The translations under genes and the position numbers were made by a program. From Leptolyngbya sp. FACHB-261 (GTDB lineage: Bacteria; Cyanobacteriota; Cyanobacteriia; FACHB-261): a stretch of DNA of 64,000 nucleotides. Of the stretch, positions 36,823 to 43,754 are shown one piece after another. Where the stretch lies: the NCBI RefSeq assembly GCF_014696065.1, contig NZ_JACJPL010000013.1:124001-188000 (forward strand). The letters are read 5' to 3'. How positions within the stretch are numbered: position 1 is the first letter of the stretch; every line of letters begins with the position of its first letter. Below the pieces are notes generated by a model. That model worked only from the letters and a program-made list of their open reading frames with translations. It made no database searches and had not been told where the DNA came from.

Positions 36823-36892
36823 GATGCGATCGCGAAGGACCTCTCAGGTTGATGAAGCCATATTAGACGCGACTGATGGAGAATTGAATTAT

Positions 36893-37813
36893 ATGTATCG
36901 AGACAAAACTATCCTCGTTTTCGGCGCGACAGGCCAGCAGGGCGGCTCCGTGGCAGGTGCCTTGCGCGCAAATGGTTGGCGGGTCAAAGCACTAGTTCGT
37001 GATACGAAGACCGATAAGGCCCAGACGCTCGCATCTCAAGGGATCGAGACAGTCCGTGGCGATCTAGCAGACGTACGGTCTATCCAGTCCGCAATGGCAG
37101 GTGCCTACGGCGTTTTCAGCGTTCAACCCAGCTCTGGCCAAGGGGCAGCCTATGGGGTTACCGATGATGATGAGATCCAATATGGCAAGGCCGTGGCAGA
37201 CATCGCAGTCGCGAACAGTGTTCATCATCTCGTTTATAGTTCCGTAAACGCCGCTGGGCCAACCAAGACCGGCATGGGGCATTTTGATACCAAAAGTGAG
37301 CTTGAGGAATATATTCGCGGTCTGAATATCTTGCACACGGTCATCCGACCGAGCGCGTTCATGGAAATCCTGACGTTACCCGGTATGGGGCTCGATAAAG
37401 GCACATTCACATTCTTCATGAGAGCAGATCAGCCGATGCAGTTCATTGCAGTCGAGGACATTGGCAAGATAGTGGCCGGAATTTTCGCTGATCCCACGAA
37501 GTTCGGATCTCAGACTATCGAGATCGCTGGCGACACCTTGACGGGGGCTCAACTGGCTGAAAAATTCGCTCGGACAGCGGAGCGTCCCATCGCCTATCAT
37601 CGGTTTCCGGACAGCCTGCTTGAACAGAACGCTTTCCTCGGCGGACTAGCTAGGCTTGTCGATCAGGGCCGACTAGCCGGCAGTGCGGACATTGCAGCAC
37701 TTCGGAAAGAATTCCCTGGGCTGCTCACGATGGACGAGTGGCTCACAGGTGCTGGAAGGTCTGCGCTTCTCGCTGCAATTCAAGCTGACGGCGGTGACGT
37801 CGCACTTCGGTAG
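36893..37813 (+). CDS. NmrA-like NAD(P)-binding protein
   Basis: A 306-aa protein from ATG 36893. The N-terminal TILVFGATGQQGGSVAGAL is the NmrA/HSCARG-type GxxGxxG site, and VYSSVNAAG, HFDTKSELEEYIRG and TVIRPSAFMEI follow the family. The active-site Tyr of SDRs is absent (HFDTK), as expected for redox-sensing NmrA-like proteins that bind NADP without catalysis. NADPH-quinone reductase activity remains possible. It lies just outside the cassette array. Confidence 0.88.
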   Translation: MYRDKTILVFGATGQQGGSVAGALRANGWRVKALVRDTKTDKAQTLASQGIETVRGDLADVRSIQSAMAGAYGVFSVQPSSGQGAAYGVTDDDEIQYGKAVADIAVANSVHHLVYSSVNAAGPTKTGMGHFDTKSELEEYIRGLNILHTVIRPSAFMEILTLPGMGLDKGTFTFFMRADQPMQFIAVEDIGKIVAGIFADPTKFGSQTIEIAGDTLTGAQLAEKFARTAERPIAYHRFPDSLLEQNAFLGGLARLVDQGRLAGSADIAALRKEFPGLLTMDEWLTGAGRSALLAAIQADGGDVALR

Positions 37814-38041: not shown

Positions 38042-38758
38042 ATGCTTATTCATCCCAATCAATCTAAACAAGCTCCATTCCCGGAAATATCTCCAGAGTT
38101 GTCGCAGTCACCGAAATTGCCCACGAAATTTCAGCAGGCCTTAGCGAATAAACGGTACATCCTGAGTGTAAAGCTTTTGTTGAAAGGGGATTGTGATGAT
38201 CATGGAGCACGAAGGATAGCTCATGGTGTTACCGGGATTATTGAGCTAGAGGGTTGGGACGAGGAATGGAATCAATTAACAGAATCCGAGCTAGTTGGTG
38301 AAGAGCCAAAACCAATTGAGATTGGTTACATTTCAGGATGGCGCACGCTTAGCTCTAATCCGAACAAAGTTCTACTTTGGTCTGATCGAGTTAATTCTGA
38401 TGTTTGCTCGGCATTTAATTGGCTGATTGCCCAGCGGGCTGAGTTTGGTGTAGAAGCAGCCTTGTTCATTGATCAGGTCGTCCTTAAGCCTTGTTGGCGA
38501 GGACAGCAACTCGCCTTGAGAGCCGTCGCTACCTACCTAGATCTAGTCGGCTGCAAGTTCGTGTTCTTGCAAGTTGCTCCCTTAGATGTGAGCCACCTAA
38601 CACCTCAGCAACAAGACTCGATAAAACATCGATTAAGACGCTACTGGCAAAAACTAGGACTGAAACACTATGATCCAGCAAACAATATTGTGTGGACAGA
38701 CCACTGGCAATGTCCCCAATGGTTGCAGTCTGAGGATGACTATACTTATATTTCTTAA
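38042..38758 (+). CDS. Hypothetical protein with GNAT-like C-terminal region
   Basis: A 238-aa protein. The C-terminal half carries LKPCWRGQQLALRAVATYLD and a downstream RYWQKLGLKHYDPANNI, matching the acetyl-CoA loop (R-G-x-x-L/A) and the late helix of GNAT acetyltransferases. The N-terminal half (residues 1-100) is unfamiliar. No substrate can be given. An AT-rich 100-bp region precedes it; downstream is a decayed stretch. Confidence 0.55.
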   Translation: MLIHPNQSKQAPFPEISPELSQSPKLPTKFQQALANKRYILSVKLLLKGDCDDHGARRIAHGVTGIIELEGWDEEWNQLTESELVGEEPKPIEIGYISGWRTLSSNPNKVLLWSDRVNSDVCSAFNWLIAQRAEFGVEAALFIDQVVLKPCWRGQQLALRAVATYLDLVGCKFVFLQVAPLDVSHLTPQQQDSIKHRLRRYWQKLGLKHYDPANNIVWTDHWQCPQWLQSEDDYTYIS

Positions 38759-38880
38759 GATGCTTTCTGGTGTTTTAACACTCACTAGGAGCGATCATCT
38801 AATCCGAGACGAACTAGCACTGAAGTAGTGCGTTCACTGAATAACCGTAAATATTTAGATGTAGGCCAGAGAGGTGTGCA

Positions 38881-39084
38881 ATGCGTGTTCAACGAATGTG
38901 GTTCAAGCTTTACTGTATAGGCTGGAGACATGGCTCCCTGAAGCGTCCCCTCCCCCTCCAACACTGGTTGCTTAATATCTTTCTTTGCTATCGAAAAGGC
39001 TATACCGAAGGGTCGAAACGGAGGCTACAGAAACGCTTAGAACATCTGCTATTTAGTAACGCTGCTGAGCAAAGGCACTTTTGA
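38881..39084 (+). CDS. Possible small basic protein
   Basis: A 67-residue open frame, rich in Arg, Trp and Leu (KRRLQKRLEHLLFSNAAEQR). GAGAGG lies seven bases before the ATG. I do not recognise it. It lies between a complete gene and a decayed gene fragment, so it could also be chance. Confidence 0.3.
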   Translation: MRVQRMWFKLYCIGWRHGSLKRPLPLQHWLLNIFLCYRKGYTEGSKRRLQKRLEHLLFSNAAEQRHF

Positions 39085-39147
39085 GAACCTGAGGTTAGTC
39101 AGGTACCTCCACCTGAGTAACGGATGACAGTTCCCCCTAGCTAATTG

Positions 39148-39321
39148 CTGACCAAGGGAGCATACAATCGGGAACGATCACTGGTGAAAGCGATCAATCC
39201 GGACGGCTGGTTTGATACGAGCGATTTGGGCATGGTCACGCGCTGCAACAATTTGATCATCACTTTTAGAGCGGAGATAAAACAGGACCATAAGCATGTG
39301 GTTTCCCCAACAACAATTTGA
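39148..39321 (+). pseudogene. Fragment of an acyl-ACP/acyl-CoA synthetase
   Basis: One frame reads KAINPDGWFDTSDLGMVTRC and then NNLIITFRAEI before degenerating. This matches the hinge of AMP-forming acyl-activating enzymes (usual GWFDTGDLG ... LVLTGRAKD), closest in wording to cyanobacterial acyl-ACP synthetase (aas). No start codon, adenylation core or C-terminal lysine domain is nearby. A relic of about 55 codons. Confidence 0.6.
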
Positions 39322-39395
39322 TGACCAACCGACTCGTTTGATGCACGACCTCTACAGCCATAATTAGACAAGTAGTTAACCTGGCCACAGTAAAA

Positions 39396-40163
39396 ATGTC
39401 TTCCCCAACTGATCTAGAGCTAGAGCACACAACCCTGTTTGAGCAACTGCAGAGCATTTTGAGCGAGTTATATAAAGAAGTAACCCAGCAGATTGCGGTT
39501 TTGCCCCTGTCAGATCAACCACTTCAGAGCTTTAGCAGCCCCGATGGCAACGTGACAGGCTCACTCTTGTCCTTCACTGGAGAGGAGCTGGATTGGATGG
39601 TTCACTCGTGGATTAATGCCGCTCAAATGAGATTTAGCACCATGCGCCTGACTCTTTGGCTAAGCCCACTGATTCAGGTACCTCACCTAGCGTTTGAATT
39701 TGGCACAAAGCCCGATCTCTTCTTCTATATTGACTACATCCCTAGAGTTGATTTGTGGAGTGATTTAAGCTACACAGAACGCTACTATGACTCTGTGAAT
39801 GCAACTTATCTAGAATTAAGAGAGAATCCTAATCTGTCTTTGTTTGTGAGTAAGGCGCTGTACGTGAGGCAATTGCAGTCTCCAACGTCGCTTTGCTTTA
39901 CTTGCCCTGCAACAGAGGATTCTCTTTCGTTTATTCGGAATACTGCCCATGAAATGTGTTCTCGCTGGTTAACTTGGGTTAAGCAGGCAGAACCTGTATC
40001 TGTCGATCGCCAAACTATACTGGCAGAACGTGATTTACTGCTGCGACGAATTACTGCAGAACGCGATCCAGGCAATGCTGTAGCAGTAAAAATCTTTGGG
40101 GCAGAGTTGGCAAACCGGTTGATCCGTTCGCTATGGAGCAAAGAACATGAGCAAGAAACATAG
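39396..40163 (+). CDS. Red chlorophyll catabolite reductase-like protein
   Basis: A 255-aa protein resembling RCCR, a member of the ferredoxin-dependent bilin reductase fold. Diagnostic parts are VPHLAFEFGTKPDLFFYIDY, IPRVDLWSDLSYTERYYDS and KALYVRQLQSPTSLCFTC, which parallel the plant sequence around its PPRKDL, IEKYYD and YIRSxxSPT motifs. Plant RCCR reduces a pheophorbide-derived linear tetrapyrrole in chlorophyll breakdown. The native substrate in cyanobacteria is uncertain. No transit peptide. Followed 76 bp later by an NmrA-like gene and a GST. Confidence 0.75.
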   Translation: MSSPTDLELEHTTLFEQLQSILSELYKEVTQQIAVLPLSDQPLQSFSSPDGNVTGSLLSFTGEELDWMVHSWINAAQMRFSTMRLTLWLSPLIQVPHLAFEFGTKPDLFFYIDYIPRVDLWSDLSYTERYYDSVNATYLELRENPNLSLFVSKALYVRQLQSPTSLCFTCPATEDSLSFIRNTAHEMCSRWLTWVKQAEPVSVDRQTILAERDLLLRRITAERDPGNAVAVKIFGAELANRLIRSLWSKEHEQET

Positions 40164-40239
40164 TGCCACGATGCCATCTTTCTAAAAAAGTCCGTTTTTT
40201 TAAAGACTAAACTGAGTACAGAGCGTTGGAGATTATGCT

Positions 40240-41169
40240 GTGAACCCTTCAGATTCTATGAATACAGAGACAGCAGTTGGTAAAGTGCTGCTGATAGGTG
40301 TGACTGGGGGGACAGGCAGCAATGCTGTCAAAGGACTGCTCGAACAGAATGTGATTGATCTACGTGCGATTACCCGCAAGATTGACCTTGAGCGTCCTTC
40401 CTTATCTAGACTGCACAATAGCGGTGTTGAGCTAGTTGAAGCAGATCTCGATGATGAGTCTTCGTTGAAAGCGGCCTTTGCAGGTGTTTCAGCCGTTTAC
40501 TGCCACGCAACTGCCGGAGATTCTGCCAAGCCCGATCCACAAGAAATTGCAAGGGCAGAGCGAGTTGCACAAGCTGCTAAACAAGCCAATATCAGCCACT
40601 TTGTCTACAATTCTGCTGGAGGGGTCGATCGCAATTCTGGCATTCGTCACATCGAGCAAAAGCATAAAGTAGAGCAGATTCTAAAGCAGACGGGTTTACC
40701 AACTACAATGCTGAGGGCCTGCCTATTTATGGAGGAGTTCTGGAAGCAATACACCCGACCGTCTGTCCTTAAAGGGTCTTTTTCCTTTGCGGTTCAGCTC
40801 AACAGGCCGCTTCATCTGATTACGACAAAAGATATGGGACGAGTGGCCGCACATGTGATGAAGCACCGTTCTCAGTATGTGGGTCAAGAAATTGAGCTGG
40901 CTGGAGATGTGTTGACTCCTAAACAAATGGCGGAAGCATTCTCCAGGGCGCAGGGAAAACCGGTGATTTACAAAGAAATTCCTCCCTGGATTTTCTTACT
41001 TCTATTTCGCAAATCGCTATTTGATTTAATTCAGTGGTATCGCAACCAAGGCTATCAAGCAGATGTTCCCTGCTTAAGAGAGACATTTCCTGGGCTTCTG
41101 ACTACCTTTGACCAATTTCTAAAAGAAACCGATTGGGCAAATGCAGAGTTGTCGTATCAAGATTTGTAG
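40240..41169 (+). CDS. NmrA-like NAD(P)-binding reductase
   Basis: A 309-aa protein of the NmrA/HSCARG group, with VLLIGVTGGTGSNAVKGLL at the N-terminus, FVYNSAGGVDRNSG, a HIEQKHKVEQILKQTGLPTT helix and LRACLFMEEF. His-x-x-x-Lys replaces the SDR Tyr-x-x-x-Lys. GTG 40240 is preceded by GGAG; ATG 40258 is an alternative. The 3' end overlaps the widest frame of the GST gene, so transcription with it is likely. Confidence 0.87.
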   Translation: MNPSDSMNTETAVGKVLLIGVTGGTGSNAVKGLLEQNVIDLRAITRKIDLERPSLSRLHNSGVELVEADLDDESSLKAAFAGVSAVYCHATAGDSAKPDPQEIARAERVAQAAKQANISHFVYNSAGGVDRNSGIRHIEQKHKVEQILKQTGLPTTMLRACLFMEEFWKQYTRPSVLKGSFSFAVQLNRPLHLITTKDMGRVAAHVMKHRSQYVGQEIELAGDVLTPKQMAEAFSRAQGKPVIYKEIPPWIFLLLFRKSLFDLIQWYRNQGYQADVPCLRETFPGLLTTFDQFLKETDWANAELSYQDL

Positions 41170-41228
41170 AACTTCAAAGACAGGTACGAACGATCAATCC
41201 CATATCCTATCTGCATGGTTTGTGTCAC

Positions 41229-42440
41229 ATGGTCATTCATAATACTGAGTCTAGCTGGGAGCAACTGTTAGAAGTTGCCCGCGACAATACTTCGGCTCGA
41301 CGACTACGCAGACCTGGACAATCTCCTTCTACTGTCCCCATTGCGAGTAGTTTGCACAAACTGCCCACTGACACTGCACCTCCTGTTGTGCTTTATCGAG
41401 ATACAAACTCTTGGTGTCCTTTTTGTGAGCGTGTTTGGTTTGCATTAGAGGAAAAGGAAATCCCGTTTGCAACTGAATTTATCGACCTGTTCAACAAACC
41501 AAAATGGTACACTGATTTGGTTCCGACAGGCCTTGTTCCGGCAGTAAAAATTGAAGATCAATTTGTTCACGAATCCAAAGCCATTCTTTTAGCGTTGGAA
41601 GAACAATTCGGGATAACATTACTTCCTGATAATCTAGAAGAAAACGCTATCGCAAGACAATGGATCGAGGAGGCAGAAACCGGCGGGTTGGAGCAAGCTG
41701 GCTACAAATTTCTGCTGGAAAAAACGTCAGAGGCGGATGGACTAGTAGGGCTGCAAGCTGCATTTGAAGCCAAACTAGACGAACTAGAGCAAGCGTTAGG
41801 GCAGTATCCTGGGCCTTACTTTTTGAGCACGTTTAGCTTGGTCGATATCACGTATAGCCCTCATCTCGATCGATTGGCTGCCACTTTACCAGTCTATAGA
41901 GACTATTCGATCAAGGGCAATCCTCGCTTTCCTCGGATCAGTGCTTGGTTTGTAGCATTGGCTGAGCGTCCTGCTTACCATCGGGTCAAGTCGGAAGATA
42001 TTACCAACAATTTGCTGTTCCGTCGTTTCTGGGGAGCAGAACCGATCGCCAATCTAGTTCCTCCTGATCCAGCCATCAGCCATACGCTGGCCTGTCGAGC
42101 GGAAGCCGCAGAGCGGTTGAGCGACAATCATGAGCTTGCGATCGCAGATATTCTCAAGAACTCTGGTCTACAAGCGTTTTCAGGAGAAACTTCTGCACTC
42201 GAAACCGCGATCGAGAGCCATCTCAAACTATTAGCGACCTATCTTCTTTACGGCGAAGATACTCTACTTCCCTGGGGACGAATCGGGGGCAAAGATCAGA
42301 GCGATCCATTCGCTTCAGCCGTAGGAGCGATCGCCCTGACTTACGTGAGGAATCGCATCTGTGCACCGCGCGATATGAGTGCAGGTGCCGCGATCGCATT
42401 TCGTGCAGCCGTCGATCGACTACTGACATCGCTCTACTAA
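41229..42440 (+). CDS. Two-part glutathione S-transferase family protein
   Basis: About 403 aa from ATG 41229. An N-terminal ~50-residue lead is followed by a GST thioredoxin-like domain with the redox-type CPFC (C63/C66) in SWCPFCERVWFALEEKE, GLVPAVKIED (cis-Pro) and HESKAILLALEE. The GST helical domain and then ~130 extra C-terminal residues follow, a layout seen in cyanobacterial DHAR/omega-like proteins. Probably glutathionyl- or thiol-transfer chemistry. It follows the NmrA-like gene by 59 bp. Confidence 0.85.
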   Translation: MVIHNTESSWEQLLEVARDNTSARRLRRPGQSPSTVPIASSLHKLPTDTAPPVVLYRDTNSWCPFCERVWFALEEKEIPFATEFIDLFNKPKWYTDLVPTGLVPAVKIEDQFVHESKAILLALEEQFGITLLPDNLEENAIARQWIEEAETGGLEQAGYKFLLEKTSEADGLVGLQAAFEAKLDELEQALGQYPGPYFLSTFSLVDITYSPHLDRLAATLPVYRDYSIKGNPRFPRISAWFVALAERPAYHRVKSEDITNNLLFRRFWGAEPIANLVPPDPAISHTLACRAEAAERLSDNHELAIADILKNSGLQAFSGETSALETAIESHLKLLATYLLYGEDTLLPWGRIGGKDQSDPFASAVGAIALTYVRNRICAPRDMSAGAAIAFRAAVDRLLTSLY

Positions 42441-42489
42441 CAAACACAAGGCAAGTTACAGAGAGAGGGCACTTCCAAAGGCCCCATTC

Positions 42490-42518
42490 ACGATGCTCGC
42501 ATGAGCATCGTTGTTTGT
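42490..42518 (+). terminator. Intrinsic terminator
   Basis: ACGATGCTC (42490-42498) and GAGCATCGT (42503-42511) form a perfect 9-bp stem with a 4-nt loop, followed by TGTTTGTGT. It ends the RCCR-like/NmrA/GST transcription unit and may also serve the convergent AraC gene. Confidence 0.8.
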
Positions 42519-42651
42519 GTCAAGGCAAAAAGGGTTAGAAATTTGGCATCCCTGCTAATTTAGTAGCATTGCTACTACAGCTCTACTCAAATAGAGTTCC
42601 AGAAAAATCTTGCGACACTACCTCTGCAACGAATAGCTAGACAGTTTTCGC

Positions 42652-43626
42652 TTAAGCAGTGCGCAGCCGTTCGATGTCCCGAATCGGTGGCGCACCGAAC
42701 ATGCGCGAATATTCGCGGCTGAACTGGGAGGGACTTTCATACCCCACTTGGTAAGCAGCAGAAGTCGCATCAAAATTTTCAGCAAGCATCAGACGACGAG
42801 ACTCCAAAAGTCTTAACTGCTTTTGATACTGAAGCGGGCTCATTGAGGTCACTTGCTTAAAATGCTGATGGAACGACGAAGTAGACATACCGACTCGCCC
42901 GGCTAACTCTTCAATCCGCATCGGCTTAGTGAAATCAGATTTGATTAATTTGATCGCTGACGCAATTCGCTGCATGCTACTGCCCAAGGTGGCGATTTGG
43001 CGCACGGCTTCACCTTGTTCACCCGTGAGCAGACGGTAATAGAGCTCACGAATCATCATCGGTGCCAGCATGGGGATATCTTGCGGCGTATCTAAGAGCT
43101 TGGTTAGGCGAAGGGCGCTCTCGATCAAGGCAGCATCAGCATTGCTGACTGATACGCCCCGGACAGAATTCTCTTTCTTACCCAACCTGAGATTCATTTG
43201 GGCAACCATATCACACAGTTGAATTGGGTCTAAGCTTAGCTTCAGCCCTAAATACGGCTTGTCAGGGGTCGCCTCAACTACAAATCCACTCAGTGGTAAC
43301 TCAACCGAAACTATCAGATATTGTGCTGCGCCATACTGATACGTTTCCTCACCCAGCAACACTTCTTTTTGACCTTGAACAATGAGCGCGAGGATTGGGT
43401 TATAAACACTGTGGCCGAGTGCGGTAGACGCAGTATCCGATCGCGTGAAGTCCAATTGCTCGATCGCAGTTGGCTGGATAAGGTTCCCGTTAGCCTCAGT
43501 ATGCCGCATCACTAGGGTCGCGAGTTCTTGGCGTTGAGCCACGGTTCCTAGCGCCTTGGGAGCAGTTTCGCCTACAGAGTTTAGCCTTGCGTTAATCGCT
43601 TCAGGCTTAGAGATTTCGACTGTCAT
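42652..43626 (-). CDS. AraC family regulator with AraC_N cupin-like domain
   Basis: About 324 aa from ATG 43626 (GAGGCGAG upstream; 43644 is possible). Residues 50-200 match the AraC-type N-terminal domain (LALIVQGQKEVLLGEETYQY, SVELPLSGFVVEATPDKPYL). The C-terminal two-HTH AraC domain reads IEELAGRVGMSTSSFHQHFK and VGYESPSQFSREYSRMFG. Regulators of this type commonly control nearby SDR or aldo-keto reductase genes; the SDR at 44148 is a candidate target. Confidence 0.9.
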   Translation of the reverse strand: MTVEISKPEAINARLNSVGETAPKALGTVAQRQELATLVMRHTEANGNLIQPTAIEQLDFTRSDTASTALGHSVYNPILALIVQGQKEVLLGEETYQYGAAQYLIVSVELPLSGFVVEATPDKPYLGLKLSLDPIQLCDMVAQMNLRLGKKENSVRGVSVSNADAALIESALRLTKLLDTPQDIPMLAPMMIRELYYRLLTGEQGEAVRQIATLGSSMQRIASAIKLIKSDFTKPMRIEELAGRVGMSTSSFHQHFKQVTSMSPLQYQKQLRLLESRRLMLAENFDATSAAYQVGYESPSQFSREYSRMFGAPPIRDIERLRTA

Positions 43627-43754
43627 GCTAGAGACTCGCCTCATTGAAGGCCTTACTTCTGACGATTATAGAACCTCTCAAAGCGACTGCTTTGGAGAAT
43701 TAGGCAATGATCACATAGATTTGGGCATTTGAAAGGCTGGTTCGAACTCGTAGG

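Follow-up and report, generated by a model that had tools for sequence, protein, structure and literature searches.

An RCCR-family gene of Leptolyngbya sp. FACHB-261, its conserved NmrA-family partner and related gene clusters in non-photosynthetic bacteria

Introduction

Chlorophyll turnover is vast, yet little is understood of how organisms other than plants and algae degrade the pigment. We analysed a stretch of 64,000 nucleotides (the window) from the cyanobacterium Leptolyngbya sp. FACHB-261 (contig NZ_JACJPL010000013.1, positions 124,001 to 188,000), whose genome (G000; G and L numbers are our labels for genomes and loci) is 6.95 Mb in size and 97.66% complete. The window holds a gene resembling the red chlorophyll catabolite reductase (RCCR) of plants. 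A sequence-only reading had grouped it with two neighbours, an NADP-binding sensor-like gene and a glutathione S-transferase (GST) gene. What might such a reductase do in a cyanobacterium, and which of its neighbours belong with it?

We find that the gene at 39396-40163 is a genuine RCCR family member, as judged by sequence, predicted fold and active-site residues, and that the NmrA-family gene beside it is a conserved partner; their link is real. We lean, at slightly better than even confidence, towards a ferredoxin-dependent open-chain tetrapyrrole reductase that would work with NmrA in a small catabolic branch. A gene cluster around RCCR homologues in heterotrophic bacteria is a more surprising result than the window gene itself.

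Results

The window gene encodes a member of the RCCR family

An open reading frame (ORF) listing places RCCR, NmrA and GST genes in a row on the + strand. The first two are:

39396..40163, + strand: RCCR-family reductase, 255 aa (PF06405, E 3.3e-18; match to Arabidopsis RCCR, AtRCCR, in the PDB, E 9.1e-10)
40240..41169, + strand: NmrA-family oxidoreductase-like protein, 309 aa, conserved partner (PF05368, E 3.1e-42)

The RCC_reductase match (PF06405, Pfam) reaches 66.3 bits against a cut-off of 24.9, and a whole-genome search gave no second significant RCCR match in this strain. At E 0.01 the window protein matched neither Fe_bilin_red (PF05996) nor any NCBIfam model; one cyanobacterial RCCR homologue (L019) does match PF05996 (E 8e-10). 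An AlphaFold model was built on 65 sequences (pLDDT 94, pTM 0.91). Foldseek ranks 1-9 were all AtRCCR chains (best E 5.6e-16, TM 0.77-0.78), followed by bilin reductases, PebB first (E 5e-12). VIA-align to AtRCCR gave Z 26.1 and rmsd 2.3 over 238 residues, and entries of PcyA, PebA, PebB and HY2 gave Z 21.8-24.8, a narrow lead for RCCR (26.1 vs 24.8). Identity to plant RCCR in these structural alignments is 20-24%. The structure comparison that the sequence-only reading had called for therefore points to an RCCR/bilin reductase fold in the predicted model.

We take E154 and D291 to be the acidic active-site residues with a catalytic role in plant RCCR, and F218 to be its stereospecificity position; our literature search on E154/D291 gave nothing relevant among the matches listed. 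With plant numbering anchored on the F218V PDB entries of AtRCCR, the alignment equates E154 with E101, D291 with D224 and F218 with Q161. Conservation was scored on 65 of 85 RCCR ORFs, two fragments and 18 further rows being left out. D224 and D113 are invariant (65/65), and E101 is kept in 36 of the 65; the other 29, including all 13 non-cyanobacterial ones, have A, V or G. With PF06405 above its cut-off, AtRCCR as best PDB and fold match, and both acidic positions kept, the proposed RCCR-like protein stands.

An NmrA-family gene is a conserved partner of RCCR in cyanobacteria

The predicted NADP-binding sensor-like neighbour is also present, 76 bp downstream of RCCR; it has a GTG start and an in-frame ATG at 40258. 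Because its nearest solved relatives are the monooxygenase entry 5f5l, HSCARG and triphenylmethane reductase, the protein probably serves either as an NAD(P)H oxidoreductase or as a redox sensor.

Among 386 cyanobacterial genomes, RCCR is found in 14 and NmrA orthologues (E 1e-100) in six. Five of these six carry RCCR, adjacent to NmrA in every case, and the genome overlap of five compares with 0.22 expected. A scan of named genomes for relatives, in which the best 80 of 95 confirmed RCCR relatives were kept, yielded 67 cyanobacterial and 13 non-cyanobacterial loci, many of them interrupted by contig ends. Of the 67 cyanobacterial loci, 28 have NmrA no more than 3.5 kb from RCCR. Within the window's own group, RCCR and NmrA stand in tandem in L031, L033 and L034, with ORFs that overlap or lie 77 bp apart, and NmrA precedes RCCR in L035; at the remaining 24 of the 28 loci NmrA is on the opposite strand to RCCR. 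The gene-order check thus extends the pairing beyond Leptolyngbya sp. FACHB-261. At L022, L063, L065 and L077, RCCR is duplicated with NmrA between the copies, and V stands in for E101 in the second copy.

Many Nostocales carry a further arrangement, in which RCCR is followed by genes for a nitrilase-family C-N hydrolase and an aldehyde dehydrogenase. The nitrilase gene occurs within 3.5 kb in 43, and the aldehyde dehydrogenase gene within 4.5 kb in 46, of the 67 cyanobacterial loci. At least one of the three partners is present at 48 of the 56 cyanobacterial loci that have at least 3 kb on both sides. Across the 386 genomes, the nitrilase (E 1e-80) was found in 20; nine of these have RCCR, and the two genes are adjacent in eight.

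RCCR homologues lie in gene clusters of non-photosynthetic bacteria

Among the best 80 of 95 relatives, RCCR homologues of 36-46% identity occur in metagenome-assembled genomes (MAGs) of Chloroflexota, delta/Myxococcota, Oligoflexaceae and Actinomycetota. RCCR lies within a common gene set at the 13 non-cyanobacterial loci. The cluster loci are L101:1-16732 with L161 and L162, and L088, L095, L096, L102, L103 and L106-L110. We compiled a tally by hand from the neighbour table, adding L161 and L162 for L101; several loci end at contig edges, and the 13 are not independent, L101/L103 and L108/L110 being near relatives. Over the 13 loci the counts are hydrolase 10, Rieske 9, a further reductase resembling RCCR (RCCR2) 9, LipA 9, LipD 8, DUF3891 8, acyl-CoA dehydrogenase-like 7, LipC 7, LipB 7, GntR regulator 5, aldehyde dehydrogenase 5 and flavin monooxygenase 4. 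L104 has RCCR and LipC only.

L101 encodes a VanA_C-type Rieske protein, which does not match pheophorbide a oxygenase (PaO). Among nine Rieske ORFs examined, eight keep the cluster-binding motif and eight the mononuclear iron motif. We searched 10 of the 13 non-cyanobacterial RCCR genomes for Rieske, PaO and ferredoxin-dependent bilin reductase (FDBR) genes, leaving out L099, L104 and L110. A relative of the L101 Rieske was found in all 10 (best match 47-100%, where 100 is the query's own genome and the matches in G392 and G399 are partial), and PaO was matched in none of them.

The cluster hydrolase has a GHSxGG motif in 10 of 10 ORFs, and that of L101 shows a weak, sub-cut-off match to the chlorophyllase Pfam family. 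RCCR2 of L101 had no Pfam or PDB sequence match, and NCBIfam gave no match at E 0.001 for the L101 RCCR, RCCR2 or Lip proteins. Nevertheless, an RCCR2 profile of eight sequences aligned to the RCCR profile with 98.3% probability (E 1.4e-14), and an RCCR2 model (pLDDT 91) matched AtRCCR and the bilin reductases about equally. LipA is a relative of LipC (hhalign probability 97.7). We also tried DUF3598-like proteins, which stand beside RCCR in some Nostocales, as Lip relatives and rejected them (hhalign probability 1.8 for LipC and 0.4 for LipD).

Further cluster genes encode a cyclic amidohydrolase, isochorismatase and nitrilase family hydrolases, hydratase subunits of the LeuC and LeuD/DmdB type, CoA-transferase III and HMGL-like lyases. 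As families, these would fit the opening of imide or lactam rings and the feeding of the products into central metabolism. RCCR was found in four of 150 genomes of G393's class (G393 included), and in the two most distant members (34% identity) it stands with flavin monooxygenase and isochorismatase-family genes. The accessible part of one report describes an active Mg-dechelatase homologue encoded in an Anaerolineae MAG, with a physiological role that is unknown (PMC8531759).

The gene content suggests that the heterotroph cluster is a candidate tetrapyrrole-catabolic pathway. In the literature searched, which largely excluded subscription papers, we found no description of this cluster or of the NmrA pairing. 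On a wider reading, which we regard as a tentative possibility that falls somewhat short of even, RCCR reductases would be part of a widespread bacterial route, as yet undescribed, by which chlorophyll-type tetrapyrroles are opened and consumed. Its components would include the non-PaO Rieske, RCCR2, a chlorophyllase-like hydrolase with GHSxGG, the paralogous LipA and LipC, and a flavin monooxygenase. Breakdown of pyrrole-derived imides might then fall to the cyclic amidohydrolase, isochorismatase- and nitrilase-family amidases, LeuC, LeuD/DmdB, CoA-transferase and an HMG-CoA-lyase-like lyase. The RCCR-NmrA and RCCR-nitrilase-aldehyde dehydrogenase units of cyanobacteria, the window's included, would represent branches of the pathway that have undergone reduction, with plant RCCR as a late offshoot.

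Gene location ties the Rieske family to tetrapyrroles in cyanobacteria

Many cyanobacteria have Rieske genes at 26-35% identity to the cluster Rieske, a level that is little informative. The best cyanobacterial relatives reach 41-44% identity and form tandem pairs:

L159:8024-10278, L160:8867-11057 and L163:1133-3500: paired Rieske genes in tandem, with surroundings that are of tolyporphin type or unassigned

In Oculatella sp. LEGE 06141 (G387), the paired genes (44 and 39%) adjoin genes for glutamyl-tRNA reductase, an acyltransferase-like protein and a P450. The pair of G101 lies beside coproporphyrinogen III oxidase. That of cyanobacterium CCT1 lies beside an alpha/beta hydrolase, on a contig that also carries RCCR at a distance of 10.5 kb. 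These locations tie the Rieske family to tetrapyrroles.

Unlikely alternatives: a plant-type pathway or bilin synthesis in the window strain

Could the window protein instead be a biosynthetic bilin reductase that converts biliverdin into an unusual bilin, to serve as chromophore or signal? Its fold is that of PcyA, PebA, PebB and HY2, whose best Z values are 1-2 below that of RCCR. The FDBR Pfam family is represented in the window genome by only one gene, probably PcyA, so a second reductase could widen the bilin set. In addition, the strain represented by L020 and L092 has a heme oxygenase gene about 3 kb from its RCCR unit, and a hemN-type gene is also near. Against this, PF05996 does not match the window protein at E 0.01, heme oxygenase flanks RCCR in that one strain only among 93 loci searched, and the partner genes elsewhere belong to catabolic families. 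We consider this role unlikely. At L020:10463-14710, heme oxygenase, AcsF-like and HemN-type genes lie close to the RCCR-nitrilase-aldehyde dehydrogenase unit; AcsF is our assignment for a rubrerythrin-family protein. The ORF sets of the 93 loci showed these three genes near RCCR in no other strain.

The simplest expectation from plants is that the protein reduces red chlorophyll catabolite to pFCC, after another oxygenase has opened the ring. AtRCCR is the closest fold, both plant acidic residues are kept, and PaO-family genes (PF08417) matched in 13 of 18 RCCR-bearing cyanobacteria tested. The search covered 28 genomes, and the model matched 13 of the 27 others. It found no match in the window genome (97.66% complete) or in the RCCR-bearing G005, G278, G386 and G387, the completeness of G386 and G387 not being stated. 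Two of 14 controls, Caulobacter vibrioides and Synechococcus elongatus, were matched, above cut-off in one. The Mg-dechelatase family Staygreen (PF12638) gave no match in any of the 28 genomes, and none in any control genome either. Identity to the plant enzyme is also low, and the Rieske genes of the window genome are only 30-35% identical to the cluster Rieske. Because no PaO match was found in its genome, the plant pathway as such is unlikely in the window strain, and we think it improbable that the protein acts as in plants. The tetrapyrrole-degradation role proposed from the sequence is plausible and is strengthened by the clusters of non-photosynthetic bacteria, but not in a plant-like form here.

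The GST gene is judged a chance neighbour

The third gene and its surroundings comprise:

41229..42440, + strand: GST iota-like protein, 403 aa (GST_N_2, PF13409, E 1.4e-18)
42087..42434, + strand: phycoerythrin-alpha-like domain of the GST (residues 287-402; phmmer to PDB 3mwn, E 2e-10)
42490..42511, + strand: stem-loop 3' of the GST gene, 9 pairs, weak terminator candidate (terminator scan)

The start is probably ATG 41229 rather than TTG 41133, because the 20 full-length matches (the window's included) begin within residues 1-8 and end at 403. The gene is CPFC-type as anticipated, with CPFC at residues 63-66. Its GST part matches Synechocystis Sll1902 (PDB 9r0w, E 5e-37), a match confined to that part. 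The C-terminal 116 residues match phycoerythrin alpha chains over the same range when the whole protein is searched, and include Cys378; this domain is truncated in the window protein. Full-length matches occur in 20 of the 386 genomes, the window's included, and CPFC and the NRxCxPRDMS cysteine are kept in all 20. We dropped the idea that the fusion is a new architecture: the accessible part of a 2014 paper describes GST iota (GSTI) proteins with a possible C-terminal phycoerythrin-alpha domain (PMC4138524). A literature search for the GST iota class in cyanobacteria found no paper.

The sequence-only reading had also placed a terminator after this gene and taken all three genes as one group. 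A 9-pair stem-loop is indeed present, but its tail is not T-rich, and sites resembling terminators are no more frequent in 38700-43000 than expected by chance (two found vs 4.3 in shuffles). A promoter scan around the locus showed no excess over chance. A co-transcribed photo-oxidative detoxification unit of RCCR, NmrA and GST would suit the shared strand, the gaps of 76 and 59 bp, and the co-occurrence of this GST type with RCCR in seven of 386 genomes vs 0.73 expected. Yet in the six other genomes the two genes are either on separate contigs or separated by at least 0.67 Mb, and all six belong to family f7, so the co-occurrence may reflect descent. The flanking DNA retrieved for the RCCR loci, often cut short by contig ends, showed no such GST ORF, either at the 80 loci from the relatives scan, the RCCR-NmrA loci L031, L033 and L034 included, or at the 13 loci of the 386-genome set. 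Five of the neighbours that recur beside this GST in ten other genomes were examined; by family they are a methyltransferase, an aldo/keto reductase, a phosphatase, a flavoprotein and an arylsulfotransferase, and none of the five is plainly tetrapyrrole-related. We judge the GST gene to be a chance neighbour and a three-gene unit to be very improbable; of the proposed grouping, the RCCR-NmrA link stands and GST membership falls, since the GST lies away from other RCCR loci.

A second NmrA-family gene (36824-37813) lies 1.6 kb upstream of RCCR and is 31% identical to the partner NmrA; no close match to it was found in 13 other cyanobacterial RCCR loci. An AraC_N-type regulator gene (42652-43644, - strand) is convergent with the GST gene.

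Origin of the cyanobacterial genes

Among the best 80 of 95 relatives, the nearest to the window RCCR (77-86%) are those of Leptolyngbya sp. FACHB-36, a Leptolyngbyaceae MAG, Oculatella sp. LEGE 06141 and cyanobacterium CCT1, with which it groups in the tree (support 100/97). Cyanobacterial RCCR homologues have been in print since 2009, and Thomas et al., who then knew them only from Nostoc and Anabaena, discussed acquisition of a plant gene by symbiotic cyanobacteria as one origin; the accessible text does not settle where plant RCCR came from or what the cyanobacterial copies mean (PMC2716323). A plant origin is hardly credible now, given homologues of 36-46% in four groups of non-cyanobacterial MAGs and in several cyanobacterial families; the single plant row also falls outside the cyanobacterial clades, a weakly supported placement with long branches, unsettled bootstrap and a poor outgroup. 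The accessible part of another paper uses RCCR as a bilin reductase outgroup and mentions relatives in Schekmanbacteria (PMC10151467).

Discussion

We favour a catabolic reductase, in which the window RCCR would bind an open-chain tetrapyrrole in its bilin pocket and reduce it with ferredoxin as donor, D224 and E101 being the likely proton donors. The NmrA-type protein, presumably NAD(P)H-dependent, may cooperate in a small branch that detoxifies or salvages tetrapyrrole catabolites. Because no PaO gene was found in the strain, the substrate is probably not PaO-made red chlorophyll catabolite; a different linear tetrapyrrole, produced inside the cell or imported, would suit better.

Several observations weigh against this catabolic reading. 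One NmrA genome (G305) lacks RCCR, the close relative L032 has no NmrA nearby within 8 kb on either side, and at 10 of the 67 cyanobacterial loci no partner of any of the three kinds is present, although some end at a contig edge. The nitrilase was not found in the window genome at E 1e-80 and is present in 11 genomes without RCCR. All partner-gene counts are confounded by common descent. The window genome's best counterpart of the cluster Rieske shows 30% identity along its length, and the stereospecificity-linked position of plant RCCR is Q161. Heme oxygenase near the L020/L092 unit would also fit a biliverdin-derived substrate. Finally, the literature searched gave no activity data for bacterial RCCR.

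Taken together, the cyanobacterial partner gene and the heterotroph cluster offer a testable pathway with named genes, and these findings could shift the origin of RCCR chemistry into bacteria.

Comparison with known systems

The window protein shares with Arabidopsis RCCR (PDB 2zxk, 2zxl, 3aga, 3agb, 3agc) the predicted fold, PF06405 and the equivalents of E154 and D291. It differs in sequence (20-24% identity), in Q at the F218 position, in its NmrA partner and in a genome without a PaO match. PcyA, PebA, PebB and HY2 have the fold in common with it; unlike them, it has no PF05996 match.

Npun_R3277 and Npun_R3279 of Nostoc punctiforme and the Anabaena variabilis homologue are cyanobacterial RCCR homologues like the window gene; the accessible text links them to symbiosis and does not give the NmrA, nitrilase and aldehyde dehydrogenase context (PMC2716323). 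The window GST has a GST domain and a C-terminal phycoerythrin-alpha-like domain, as described for GST iota, but the motif listed in the accessible part of that paper is CPYC, whereas the window protein has CPFC; we name it iota-like only (PMC4138524). The tolyporphin cluster of Oculatella sp. LEGE 06141 is listed, in the accessible part of a review, with HemA, two HcaE Rieske proteins and TolH, and the G387 Rieske neighbourhood fits this HemA-HcaE-HcaE-TolH listing (PMC10459692). That cluster is biosynthetic, and the window genome is without such a close Rieske relative.

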